NCBI GenBank assembly: GCA_947644305.1
Contig: CANRYS010000021.1
Span: 1 to 50,344 of the forward strand
DNA length: 50,344 bases
DNA from: an uncultured Roseburia sp.
Lineage (GTDB): Bacteria; Bacillota; Clostridia; Lachnospirales; Lachnospiraceae
Reading direction: 5' to 3'
How positions within the stretch are numbered: position 1 is the stretch's first letter; each line of letters begins with the position of its first letter. Shown here piece by piece: positions 1,901 through 49,342 of the stretch. Under the pieces are notes generated by a model. The model had not been told where the DNA came from and made no database searches. It saw only the letters and a program-made list of their open reading frames with translations. The position numbers were made by a program, and so were the translations under genes.

Positions 1901-2167
1901 ATGGCTTATAACAAGGGAAACGGTTCAGATTCTCCAATGAGAAGAAGAGGCCCTCGCAGAAGAAAAAAAGTATGTGCATTTTGCGCTGACAAAGAGCACG
2001 ATTATATCGATTACAAAGATACAAACAAGCTGAAAAGATACATGTCCGAGAGAGGTAAGATCCTTCCTAGAAGAATTACCGGTACATGTGCAAAACATCA
2101 GCGCGCTCTTACAGCAGCGATCAAACGTTCTCGTCACGTAGCATTGATGCCATATACATTAGACTGA
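1901..2167 (+). CDS. rpsR: 30S ribosomal protein S18
   Basis: Ribosomal protein S18, 88 residues, binding partner of S6. The hallmark segments are present: [29 protein letters not shown], and [22 protein letters not shown] Cys pair at the N-terminal CAFC with CAKH further on is the zinc-retaining form. AAGGAGG precedes the ATG. The transcript continues through a 271-bp palindromic element (2187-2457) before it meets the terminator at 2461-2489. Confidence 0.97.
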
Positions 2168-2186
2168 TTTGAATAATAGCTGATTT

Positions 2187-2457
2187 AGCCCGACGGTGCC
2201 AATTTGAACCCTGTTTCGTACTGCGCTAGCAGCAAAATAGCGTTGTTGCTTTCATTCGATGATGTCACCACATCACCTCATTCAAGCGCCTAGCTATTTT
2301 GCTGCTATCACAATCCGAAATCTTCGACCTCCGCTTGTGATTTTCCAATTTACAAGGAAACGGAATGAAACGTACTGGAGGTACGTTGATTGACGTTGAC
2401 GTAGCAAATTGGAAAATCACAAGTCGGAGGCAGGGTTCAAATTAGCGCCATCGAGCT
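2187..2457. mobile_element. 271-bp palindromic structured element, copy A
   Basis: Imperfect 27-bp terminal inverted repeats (2187-2213 and 2431-2457, sharing the inner 13 bases AATTTGAACCCTG) enclose two long internal hairpins. Arm I pairs AGCAGCAAAATAGC (2228-2241) with 2293-2306 and carries an apical stem-loop at 2258-2277. Arm II pairs 2328-2352 with 2405-2430 and contains the 7-bp hairpin AACGTAC/GTACGTT. Copy B at 47906-48175 has the same architecture. No open frame of note lies inside. It behaves like a MITE or a structured RNA repeat; I know no named family that it matches. Confidence 0.8.
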
Positions 2458-2460
2458 AAC

Positions 2461-45539: not shown

Positions 45540-46526
45540 TCACAGTGTTTTGATCTTTACCTTTTTTTCCAATCCGCTTTCCCGCAGCATCTTCGTGTAC
45601 TTTTTCTTCCTGCTCTTTGGCACCTTGATCACTACCTTGGAAGACAGACCGGAAAAGGAGCCTTTGGCAATGCTTTTTACCTTTTTTGATTTTATTTCGA
45701 TCAGACGGAGGTCTCTGGTTGGCAGCTCGGAATCATTATTTACTGCAAAAACTTTATCTTTTCCACAATAAGGCATCCCTCTTTTTATCGTTGTTACATT
45801 CTTGGGCAGCGTGATCTTTTTCAGGTTTGTACCGGAAAACGCAGACATGGAAACAGTCGTCACAGCTTCCGGGATTTCTAGAGTTCTCAGGTTCTTACAA
45901 TTAGCAAAATCATACTGCTTGATTTCCTTCATACCTTTTGACAGCTTGATCTTTGTAAGGGATGTACAGTCAACAAATAGCATCTTATATGTCTTGGTCA
46001 CACTATCCGGTATGATAACTTCTTTTAGTTTTGAACATGCTCCCAATGCTCCCAGTGTTTTTAGCGTATCCGGCAGTGTGAGGTGTTCCAATTTGGCACA
46101 ATGATAGAATGCTTCCCGTTCTATAGTTGTAACATTCACAGATAACTTGATGGACTTTAAACTTATACAGGATGAAAAAGCTCCGTACCCGATCCTCGTT
46201 ACCGAATCAGCCATAACAACGGTCTTCAATTCTACAAATGAATAGAATGCCATGTCTCCAATACCAGTAATACCATCGTTTATTATGATGCGTTCTGCCT
46301 TTCCATGCCAGACATACCAGTCTGGTTCCGGTATATGACCATCCATCATAAAATCTTTTATGCCTTTATTTCCTGAAAAAGTCAGGGTTTTCGTCTTTAT
46401 ATCATACACCCAGGTGTTTCCATTCCCATCTGTTCCACTGGTCTTTTTGGCTGCGGCATTACAGGGGATACTGCCTATACATAAAATAATACAGAGTAGC
46501 ATCGCTGTCCATCTTTTTACTTCCAT
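45540..46526 (-). CDS. Secreted BspA-type leucine-rich repeat protein (paralogue 2)
   Basis: A 328-residue protein that aligns along its whole length with its neighbour, most residues identical. Lengths are equal only because two indels cancel: the neighbour has two more residues in the signal peptide, this one has an extra Lys-Asp near residue 260 (CGKDKVF). The ATG lies inside the last codons of the subtilase gene (10-bp overlap), so translation was probably coupled to it. Disruption of the subtilase may therefore affect this gene. Confidence 0.88.
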   Translation of the reverse strand: MEVKRWTAMLLCIILCIGSIPCNAAAKKTSGTDGNGNTWVYDIKTKTLTFSGNKGIKDFMMDGHIPEPDWYVWHGKAERIIINDGITGIGDMAFYSFVELKTVVMADSVTRIGYGAFSSCISLKSIKLSVNVTTIEREAFYHCAKLEHLTLPDTLKTLGALGACSKLKEVIIPDSVTKTYKMLFVDCTSLTKIKLSKGMKEIKQYDFANCKNLRTLEIPEAVTTVSMSAFSGTNLKKITLPKNVTTIKRGMPYCGKDKVFAVNNDSELPTRDLRLIEIKSKKVKSIAKGSFSGLSSKVVIKVPKSRKKKYTKMLRESGLEKKVKIKTL

Positions 46527-47896
46527 CCTTCCACCACCTTTTTGATATTCGCATTCCCAGCATTGTTTACGACCGCATTAAGTTTCGTATTCTTTCCTGG
46601 TTTTAGGAACTTTGTTAAATTCAGTATTCCATAGGATTTTATCACATAGTTTTTCTTATCTGACTCTTTTTTGATCTTCATTGCCTTTTTTACGGATTTA
46701 TAAAAATAAATGTTTTCAAACACCTTTTTATTTCCCGATTTATATTTCGACACAGCTTGATTTATGATGGCACTACATACTCTTTTTGCACTTTTGTTAT
46801 ACCTGCTTGATATACATTTCGTGGAATCTGCAAAGTTTTTATCCACATAAAAAGTCCCATCTTTCTTTTTCGGGCCGTGTTTTAATACTTTCCACTGTTT
46901 GCAAAGAGAGGTTAAGGACTTTTTCTGTAAGCTCTCCCGATTATTTCCTTTCGCTCCCGCTGTGCTGTGGGAAAATATATCAGCCGCCGTATGCAGTGCC
47001 ATTCCATATACAAAGTTTGCCTTATCTTCTTTCTTTTTTATCTTAAAGTTTTTAAACCCGGTATTAGCTGTCATTTTAATGTTATTATAAAAAGCGTTTT
47101 TGTTTTTGGGAAACTTTCCATCTTTATATAGTTTTGCCGCCACTTTTGTCATGGTGATGTAGGCATTTACATAATTCTTTTTATAATATCCATGAAATTC
47201 CGGGTGGTCTTTCATTCCCCCCACTGTGGATTCTTTGTTATCTGGCCATACCGCACCTTCTTTTACAAAATTAAAACCTCCTTTCGCAACGGCTGCTTCA
47301 TGATTTACACCACTCCAGTACCCCCGAACCACTTCGTCGTCCGTCAGCAGTAATGTATGATCATTATCTGCCAGCAGGGACATCTTCTCCGCACCTGATC
47401 CATGATATCCTTCCGCAAATGTTCCGTACTGCTCTAGGGCGTAAGCGCAGTCGATCAGACCATATCCATACTTTGCAGGTTCGCCGAGGGGATGTGCCGA
47501 AGCACCGATCAGCTTCCGAATGAAATCGGCAGACTGGGAAGGGTCCTGCTGCCACAAAATAGCGGCCAGGGCGGACACCTGTGGGGCCGCCATGCTGGTC
47601 CCCGACTGGTTTGTCAAGATCTCGAAGGGGCCGTAGGTGGTTACGTCTTCCCCTGGTGCGACAACTTCAATCTCGTTTCCGGTGGGGGAGGACCCGGTCT
47701 GTTCTCCATTGCATTTCACTGAACCAACTGCCATTACTTCCTCATACTTCGCCGGATACTGGACCGTCTTTCCATCCCCCGCTGCGGCAACGATCAGGGT
47801 CCCCTTGGCAGAGGCGTTTTTGATGGCGTTGTGCAGTTTGGCTGAATCTTTTTCCACTCCGCAGCTGATGTTCAGGATCTTAACCCCCTTTTCCAC
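46517..47896 (-). CDS. C-terminal half of the split subtilase (S8 Ser region plus zinc-PLC-like domain)
   Basis: A 459-residue frame. Residues 1-155 complete the S8 domain: catalytic Ser101 in NQSGTSMAAPQ, and the oxyanion-hole position reads AAAGDG, with Asp for the usual Asn (the same swap is known in the convertase PC2). Residues about 165-459 contain ALHTAADIFSHSTAG, a HxxxD-type metal site like that of bacterial zinc-dependent phospholipase C, and a Lys-rich end. The frame opens with GTG at 47896 but there is no ribosome binding site, so separate translation is doubtful. Confidence 0.75.
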   Translation of the reverse strand: MEKGVKILNISCGVEKDSAKLHNAIKNASAKGTLIVAAAGDGKTVQYPAKYEEVMAVGSVKCNGEQTGSSPTGNEIEVVAPGEDVTTYGPFEILTNQSGTSMAAPQVSALAAILWQQDPSQSADFIRKLIGASAHPLGEPAKYGYGLIDCAYALEQYGTFAEGYHGSGAEKMSLLADNDHTLLLTDDEVVRGYWSGVNHEAAVAKGGFNFVKEGAVWPDNKESTVGGMKDHPEFHGYYKKNYVNAYITMTKVAAKLYKDGKFPKNKNAFYNNIKMTANTGFKNFKIKKKEDKANFVYGMALHTAADIFSHSTAGAKGNNRESLQKKSLTSLCKQWKVLKHGPKKKDGTFYVDKNFADSTKCISSRYNKSAKRVCSAIINQAVSKYKSGNKKVFENIYFYKSVKKAMKIKKESDKKNYVIKSYGILNLTKFLKPGKNTKLNAVVNNAGNANIKKVVEGWK

Positions 47897-47905
47897 GGCC
47901 CAGTT

Positions 47906-48175
47906 AGCTCAATGGTGCCAATTTGAACCCTGTTTCGTCCTGCGCTAGCACCAAAATAGCGTTGTTGCTTTCATTCGGCGATACCACCGCATCGCCTCAT
48001 TCAAGCGCCTAGCTATTTTGGTGCTATCACAATCCGAAATCTTCGACCTCCGTTTGTGATTTTCCAATTTACAAGGAAACGGAATGAAACGTACTGGAGG
48101 TACGTTGATTGACGTTGACGAAGTAAATTGGAAAATCACAGGCGGAGGCAGGGTTCAAATTGGCACCATTGAGCT
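47906..48175. mobile_element. 270-bp palindromic structured element, copy B, inside the subtilase gene
   Basis: Perfect 27-bp terminal inverted repeats (47906-47932 and 48149-48175; outer bases AGCTCAATGGTGCC). Arm I: AGCACCAAAATAGC (47947-47960) with 48012-48025, and an apical stem GGCGAT/ATCGCC (47977-47996). Arm II: 48047-48071 with 48124-48148, containing AACGTAC/GTACGTT (48088-48106). No target-site duplication: the flanks GGAATA and AACTGG (minus strand) join in frame. The copy is in the same orientation as copy A and roughly nine bases in ten agree. It holds no protein gene. Confidence 0.85.
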
Positions 48176-49342
48176 TATTCCATTCACCAGCTGGTCCACG
48201 GTGGTTTTGTTTGATTCGTCCAGGACTTCGGCGGAGTAAAGTTTCACATAGGGATTGATTCCGCTGACTTTTTCTGTGGTCAGTTGTTTCAAGTATTTGT
48301 TATCAAACTGGTACGAGTCTTCATTCCGGGATGGATCCGAAGCGAGGATCCCTGCCACGGCTGTCCCGTGTCCCGATAAGTCCCCAAAGATCGGGTTCTT
48401 TTCGGTATAGGAGGTCACAAAGTTTTCTGCTGCTACCACTTTTATATTCGAGGAATAGTCGATTCCTGAATCAATAACGCCTATTTTTATCGTGTTCTTG
48501 TTTTTTTGAAGCGCTGCCAGTACTTTTTCATCGTTGGCACGGATCATGGTCCGGTTCCATTCCTTGTCAAAGTCAAGATACCAGTCATCTTTCCGGTACT
48601 GGTATAATTTGATGTCATAAGGTTTTTTGAACTCTGCCCCCTCAGGAAAATGGATCTGCATGCCAAAGGTTTCACTCTCTCCGGGCCGGATCACCGAATT
48701 GTACTCACAGTTGGCTAATTTATACGTATTTCCGTTCCGGCTTTCTATTTTAGCCCTCCAGATGTTCTGTATCTCAAAATCAAAACTACATTCCATGGAC
48801 CAGTTTTCGATATTTTTATCTGAGTTGTTGTTCAGGGTGGCGTTCATGATACAGCCGTCATGCCATTGGTTTACCACATCAAATTGGATCTGGCATTCCT
48901 TATTGTTTACCACAAGCCTGTCCCCAAGAATTTTATAGGACCGGGGAATATCCACGGATTCTCCTTTGTATGCCGCCTGAAAGCCAAAGGAAACAGACTC
49001 CCCCGAATGAATGTTTTGATTATGTCCTGCATTTTTTATATTGTAATAGTTTGCCCCGCGATAGTCAACACTGGCATTCCAGATATTGACGTATTCATCC
49101 GAGGATTGATAGGACAATTCCCAGTTTTCTATCGTTGTACTGCCTGTATTGAATATGGTCACATTGGCTATGTAGCCCTGGTTCCACTGGGATACGATCT
49201 GATACTCGATCCTGAAATTGTCTCCGGTATAGGTGGTAGTCTGCTGATTTGTTCCTGCATAGCAGGCTGTTTTGTTGAATGGCTGGCATACCCCCGACAG
49301 CAGCATTCCCATAAACAATAGGATTGCTAAAGCTCTTTTCAT
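48155..49342 (-). CDS. N-terminal half of the split subtilase (CBM2-like modules, Asp and His of S8)
   Basis: A 395-residue frame, the last six residues from the inserted element. Signal peptide (1-30), two CBM2-like sandwiches (about 36-135 and 150-245; WNQGYIANVTIFN, WNASVDY, SGESVSFGFQ and their counterparts), then the start of the S8 domain with Asp291 (GVIDSGID) and His325 (SGHGTAVAG). The catalytic Ser is missing, so this half alone cannot be an active protease, though it could be exported and bind glycans. AAGGTGAA lies before the ATG, and Spo0A-type boxes precede its promoter. Confidence 0.8.
   Translation of the reverse strand: MKRALAILLFMGMLLSGVCQPFNKTACYAGTNQQTTTYTGDNFRIEYQIVSQWNQGYIANVTIFNTGSTTIENWELSYQSSDEYVNIWNASVDYRGANYYNIKNAGHNQNIHSGESVSFGFQAAYKGESVDIPRSYKILGDRLVVNNKECQIQFDVVNQWHDGCIMNATLNNNSDKNIENWSMECSFDFEIQNIWRAKIESRNGNTYKLANCEYNSVIRPGESETFGMQIHFPEGAEFKKPYDIKLYQYRKDDWYLDFDKEWNRTMIRANDEKVLAALQKNKNTIKIGVIDSGIDYSSNIKVVAAENFVTSYTEKNPIFGDLSGHGTAVAGILASDPSRNEDSYQFDNKYLKQLTTEKVSGINPYVKLYSAEVLDESNKTTVDQLVNGISSMVPI

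Follow-up and report, generated by a model that had tools for sequence, protein, structure and literature searches.

The window analyzed here is a 50,344-nucleotide stretch of DNA from an uncultured Roseburia sp., and it carries two copies of a short palindromic element. The first copy is placed between rpsR and a terminator-like hairpin (the hairpin was judged by eye), and the second sits inside a subtilase gene. The features of the two sites, with their positions in the window, are as follows.

1901 to 2167, forward strand: rpsR (ribosomal protein S18), the host gene upstream of copy 1.
2186 to 2458, forward strand: copy 1, a two-core mobile element with ends TA...TA, 273 bp; in four relatives the empty site holds one TA.
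2238 to 2296, forward strand: core hairpin I of copy 1, placed by alignment at the same offset as in copy 2.
2350 to 2407, reverse strand: core hairpin II of copy 1, placed by alignment at the same offset as in copy 2.
46517 to 47896, reverse strand: C-terminal portion of the subtilase gene that copy 2 splits (Peptidase_S8 profile 108-288).
47905 to 48177, forward strand: copy 2, a two-core mobile element with ends TA...TTA, about 273 bp; orthologous sites are empty in relatives G004 and G024.
47906 to 47932, forward strand: left terminal inverted repeat of copy 2, a perfect 27 bp.
47957 to 48015, forward strand: core hairpin I of copy 2 (84.8 bits with covariance model R1, for which it was a training sequence).
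48069 to 48126, reverse strand: core hairpin II of copy 2, the same module on the other strand (39.3 bits; outside the training set).
48149 to 48175, reverse strand: right terminal inverted repeat of copy 2.
48155 to 49342, reverse strand: N-terminal part of the same subtilase gene (CBM_2, CBM49, and Peptidase_S8 2-106).

An initial annotation of this DNA had placed both copies correctly and described them as folding alike, which agrees with their 93% identity over 270 bp and with the strong fold of copy 2. The length of 270 bp given there had the right places but stopped short of the element proper, which runs from TA to TA at 2186-2458 and 47905-48177. The forward strand of copy 2 is predicted to fold at -148.5 kcal/mol (z = -17.9; none of 200 shuffles did as well), and the opposite strand gives a z of -16.7. 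Its termini are perfect 27-bp repeats, and the 37-nt arms are 89% complementary. Neither 47905-48177 nor 2186-2458 fully contains an open reading frame of at least 80 amino acids. Close to the start of the window, at 886-917, a third stretch partly resembles the element end (TAGCTGGGCGGTGCCAATTTGAA).

The element is a repeat in its own genome (3.19 Mb in 37 contigs). There are 74 matches to copy 2, 11 of them nearly full-length including both window copies, and the 23-base end is found, with up to three mismatches, at 66 places compared to 0 for the reversed control. Copy 2 splits its gene, since the two flanks hold complementary parts of one Peptidase_S8 profile. The same site is empty in G004 and G024, as read in the sequence, and also in a paralogue on contig C12, as judged from match coordinates only. 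For copy 1, the flanks are shared by all four relatives that were read (G020, G024, G004, and G017), where they are joined by one TA and the element is absent; in G001, match coordinates alone indicate this overlap of two bases. The pattern at copy 1 would be equally produced by insertion between T and A without duplication, and the T...TTA ends of copy 2 are irregular beside the empty sites CAGTTTATT and CAGTTGATT, a poor fit to TA duplication.

The initial annotation had also drawn attention to three base pairs in which both partners differ between the copies, and the bases of all three read as it gave them. The two copies were compared on a consensus structure of 95 pairs, with the expectation taken from random placement of the changes on paired columns. 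They differ at 21 alignment columns, 10 of which are paired columns, and both-sided changes that preserve pairing are found at column pairs 7-269, 47-117, and 75-90. Three such changes against 0.23 expected (P = 0.0005) upholds the claim of paired double changes. Three further pairs are changed on one side and kept, and one pair is broken. The change at 7-269, A-T to G-C in the terminal repeat, had been missed earlier. One of the quoted pairs, C47984-G47989 (T2265-A2270 in copy 1), has to be given up as a conserved pair, since it is often mismatched in sister copies: among 24 copies of the window type, here called type A, it reads C-G in 10, C.A in 9, T-A in 4, and T.G in 1.

Across these 24 type A copies, double changes are seen in 10 of 95 pairs, amounting to 28 double-change cells compared to 7.3 when shuffled and at most 12 with slid partners. 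Pair 47-117, for example, is GC in 14 copies, CG in 5, and GU in 4. A second two-core group, type B, has the same 273 bp and two arms and is 72-73% identical to type A over the first 105 bases. When the types are taken together (34 copies), 28 of 72 pairs carry a double change compared to 24.9 when shuffled, with 3 of 500 shuffles as high, and there are 242 double-change cells compared to 75 shuffled and at most 50 slid. These A/B counts overstate the independent events, because most of the cells are one divergence counted repeatedly, the alignments themselves supplied the structures, and one measure of covariation, the count of pair types, does not rise above shuffles. In addition, many of the loci stem from one genome or from closely related genomes, which leaves them non-independent.

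The tip of arm I aligns without gaps across three subfamilies (22 sequences, 59 columns) and defines a core of about 59 nt, which covariance model R1 describes. Arm II scores as a core on the other strand (39.3 bits), and the 273-bp form thus consists of two inverted cores. A covariance-model search of the kind that the initial annotation had proposed finds the core, under stricter filters and with the own genome counted, in 61 of 397 sampled Lachnospiraceae genomes, and its stems covary. In a sample of the phylum, the core is found in 9 of 398 genomes: the own genome, one more from Lachnospiraceae, and seven from four other families. Among the matches listed, model-confirmed cores belong to at least Blautia, Roseburia, Lachnospira, Mediterraneibacter, and Dorea, and also to Butyrivibrio, Anaerobium, Muricomes, and Faecalimonas. 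One Sphingomonas metagenome-assembled contig (L252) had the DNA pattern, but the core model gave no match there and the pattern was taken as chance.

Among 99 distinct cores, 89.6% of cells are paired and double changes occur in 15 of the 17 pairs; the double-change cells number 271, compared to 79 when shuffled and at most 46 with slid partners. Another set, of 67 distinct cores, has 87.0% of cells paired, 12 of 17 pairs with a double change, and 108 cells compared to 31 shuffled and at most 26 slid. Both sets of figures come from alignments fitted to a model that leans towards pairing, and for loci picked by pattern, the pattern fixes the loop and part of the stem, so that the slid and shuffled controls answer these biases only partly. 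Together with the 28 cells of the type A copies, the core counts support the earlier proposal of a selected folded structure. The pairing is uneven, as pairs 13-59 and 14-58 of helix 2 are unpaired in about half of the 99 cores (51 and 50 cells). The unpaired columns of the core are at least as conserved as the paired ones (majority share 0.86 compared to 0.79). Several loop letters are strongly kept, one column being the same in 99 of 99, and tandem T.C mismatches recur at set places.

Rfam offered no family at curated thresholds. A scan of the window and the loci of 20 relatives gave only tRNAs at the gathering score, in keeping with the initial annotation, and the permissive matches were all under their families' thresholds. 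Phages were searched with the window element and one single-core element, and plasmids with one single-core element, without a match in either.

Many relatives have a single core. These elements are about 163 bp long, and their end sequences differ widely. A loose rule that allowed an end anywhere from 25 to 170 nt on either side of the core located ends for 89 of 107 core matches, with 51 and 53 nt the commonest distances in single-core elements. A narrow rule, which inspected only 46-56 nt to the left and 49-58 nt to the right, gave 99 distinct single-core elements, 44 of which have exactly 51 and 53 nt. In the two-core forms, the distance before core I is 52 nt in type A and 51 nt in type B. 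The spacing was also checked at 11 loci from the phylum outside Lachnospiraceae: four of them (L402, L406, L411, and L412) measure 162 bp and have 50-53 nt to the left and to the right of the core, L407 and L408 are near that layout, and L401, L403, L404, L410, and L414 are not.

Several other observations concern the architecture. Loci L159, L213, L220, L241, L215, and L218 belong to further families, about 275-279 bp long, whose ends read, for example, TACCCTCAGTGTACAA or TAGCGTCGGTGTACAA, and in L159, L213, L220, and L241 a second, inverted core was matched. The left arm of single-core elements has, at positions 35-41, a second conserved internal loop outside the core, with CTTGYC opposite CTGCG; this loop resembles the lower loop of the core.

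The one-core and two-core forms can occupy the same site. A 164-bp single-core form at C16:31181-31344 is found where G024 has a 273-bp form, and the missing stretch is flanked by ATCACAA repeats, so in this one case an arm seems to have been lost in place. In genome G000, thirteen solo hairpins of 34-52 bp, consisting of the two element ends only, are present at different sites (L084, L085, L087, L088, L090, L092 to L096, L098, L099, and L101), and they could be either recurrent in-place deletions or independently mobile units. Genome G006 has 109 element-end matches in total. Matches at contig ends were considered as traces of a long autonomous element, but the simplest reading of them is probably that assemblies break in a short repeat. 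No conserved neighbor gene emerged from the reading frames of 29 loci, which showed few pairwise similarities only. At L162, a frame starting just downstream of the element resembles a serine recombinase by eye.

A source of transposase was looked for among IS630 transposons. Genes with the DDE_3 domain (PF13358) are found in 7 of 39 genomes of the genus and, at an E value of 1e-10, in 32 of 397 Lachnospiraceae genomes; in the own genome, the DDE_3 profile had no match. Reference ends were collected from 16 IS630 loci picked by eye (32 ends, the loci mostly of about 1280 bp), and they are largely of two kinds, TAGTGTACTG... and TAGTAYA.... The comparison covered the 62 single-core elements with located ends among the 107 core matches, some of the loci being redundant. 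At least 17 of 20 bases agree with an IS630 end in 23 of these 62, and at least 16 in 31. With 50 shuffles per left end, the best match was 15 of 20, although each real element was scored by the better of its two ends and each shuffle by a single end. The flanks of the 62 elements have C on the left in 36 and G on the right in 44, which gives CTAG; the target preference named for IS630 in the title of Tenzen and Ohtsubo 1991, listed among the references of PMC2170065, is likewise TA within CTAG. The core model found no core in the 16 IS630 loci, so those transposases seem not to need the core in their own elements.

The window type has ends beginning TAGCTC, and for these no autonomous partner was found in the searches described here, which were not exhaustive. 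At ten DDE_3 loci of the genus, no flanking pair of TAGCTC ends was seen. Among the matches listed, three TAGCTC end pairs spaced by kilobases in G006 and G062 were rejected as separate short or cut elements, as the reading frames between them looked unrelated by eye and no transposon was evident. No TA-bounded end pair was found at 17 of the 45 DDE_3 loci examined, so a partner of the TAGCTC type may exist. The window type does not share the CTAG preference, since C...G flanks occur in 1 of 13 two-core copies among those listed, and the IS630 label for it is drawn only from its TA ends, its architecture, and the shared core. In G006, a full-length IS630 (L130, around 1293-1326) directly adjoins the terminal TA of a solo hairpin of the TAGCTC type, an insertion of a mobile element into the end of a second one.

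Taken as a whole, the empty sites, the split gene, and single-core ends that resemble IS630 ends argue for a mobile element, and the earlier suggestion of non-autonomous mobile DNA gains from the fact that the single-core relatives share such ends with IS630. The two window copies probably belong to a superfamily of miniature inverted-repeat transposable elements (MITEs) of the IS630/Tc1-mariner type with a selected hairpin core that acts as DNA or as RNA. An element would have terminal inverted repeats bounded by TA and, about 51 nt in from the ends, either a single core (total length about 163 bp) or an inverted pair of cores (about 273 bp). Its transposase would act in trans, cutting and pasting it at TA, and the core would be kept because it folds. 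The likeliest place of action would be DNA, where a hairpin or cruciform could form on an exposed strand at a set distance from the ends, and the folded core may help a short element to transpose or to be tolerated. A role at the RNA level is nearly as likely as one at the DNA level, and the leaning to DNA comes from the spacing to the transposon ends, which tends to be held. A broader proposal can be put forward tentatively, with somewhat less than an even chance: the superfamily would extend through the phylum, and its folded core, kept about 51 nt from the ends, would serve as a reusable structural signal. Outer ends would be swapped to suit different IS630 transposases, while the core, single or as an inverted pair, would be retained because its fold, as DNA or RNA, is needed for spread or host tolerance.

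The main alternative to this MITE reading is that the core works as RNA in host transcripts, for example after rpsR, in mRNA stability, processing, or termination, and that elements providing this are tolerated or kept. It is possible, though on the doubtful side. Of 62 co-directional gene pairs, 42 have the core strand as their sense strand (p = 0.007), and with respect to the downstream gene it is the sense strand in 62 of 95 cases (p = 0.004); a smaller first count under a slightly different gene rule gave 26 compared to 10. This sense bias hints at RNA. However, the bias to the upstream gene is nonsignificant (55 of 95, p = 0.15), genes in these orientation tests were simple long reading frames, and the p values are unplanned. 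One T.G pair is kept in 93 of the 98 distinct cores with letters there, and the position of copy 1 between rpsR and the terminator-like hairpin also suits a transcript. Against this, wobble pairs are not favored overall. In 59 elements whose left arms are 51 nt long, the paired columns of the outer arms hold G.T in 36 cells compared to A.C in 65 (10 compared to 13 by columns), and all columns of 99 elements on the core strand hold 134 compared to 277; with no excess of G.T over A.C, there is no sign of RNA from the core strand. The Rfam result at curated thresholds weighs in the same direction.

A second alternative, which is unlikely, removes selection from the double changes altogether. Long palindromes are prone to template-switch correction, and correction at replication, combined with a few master elements, would spread paired changes as one event. 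The double changes do fall in subfamily blocks, with 10 type B rows giving most of the cells, and in the one case traced, on C16, an arm was lost in place between short direct repeats. However, correction would remove mismatched internal loops, and those of the core stay mismatched with their sequence kept across genera. Wobble intermediates are present at flipping pairs, such as the GU copies at 47-117, and the core persists beneath widely differing ends. Finally, a REPIN-like system, in which inverted hairpin pairs are moved by a RAYT (Y1 HUH) transposase via single-stranded DNA, is very improbable: the two-core form does consist of two inverted hairpin modules, REPINs likewise have a fixed length and compensatory changes according to the available part of PMC3116915, and the copy 2 site can be read as insertion without duplication, but the TA ends, the single-TA empty sites of copy 1, and the IS630-like single-core ends fit DDE cut-and-paste better.

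The covariance model offers a means to annotate this abundant repeat, which the Rfam scans assigned to no family. The usual definition of a MITE goes by its ends, and what lies between them can drift freely. In the present elements, conservation falls on the inside, which shows the covariation of a structured nucleic acid and tends to stay at one distance from the ends, and the same core is found with ends similar to at least two kinds of IS630 end. This makes a question testable: can a structural module raise a non-autonomous element's own transposition or its tolerance by the host?

Among known systems, RUP of Streptococcus pneumoniae, a proposed MITE of IS630-Spn1, is likewise a small palindrome with TA targets and IS630-like terminal repeats (PMC2229807, PMC3049150). 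It differs in its 107-bp length, and the available parts of these two sources describe no covarying, set-spaced core and no one-core and two-core forms. The paired inverted hairpins of the REPIN/RAYT system, as far as the accessible part of PMC3116915 goes, are similar in their fixed length and compensatory changes; their ends are conserved and the spacer varies, whereas in the present elements the ends vary, the inner core is conserved, and the termini are TA. The CIR elements of Caulobacter also have a two-armed predicted RNA structure with a linker but are about 110 bp long and contain a GANTC motif, and IS630 ends are unmentioned in the portion of PMC2229807 that was available. The same portion lists ERIC, YAPL/RU-2, and Correia/NEMIS, which are MITEs of about 100-200 bp with long stem-loop transcripts; they belong to other hosts, and the likeness noted here is one of description.

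In the Bacillus cereus group, bcr1-bcr3 are MITE-like and found in transcripts, and bcr10 and bcr18 are said to have conserved secondary structure. In the part of PMC3446304 that covers them, the MITE-like and RNA-like repeats are separate families, and here too the likeness noted is one of description. A literature search, which covered few subscription papers, found no description of the present element family. Its parts are of known kinds, namely IS630 MITEs such as RUP and REPINs with compensatory changes. What is new, as far as these searches reach, is a conserved covarying core held near a set distance from exchangeable ends and used singly or as an inverted pair.
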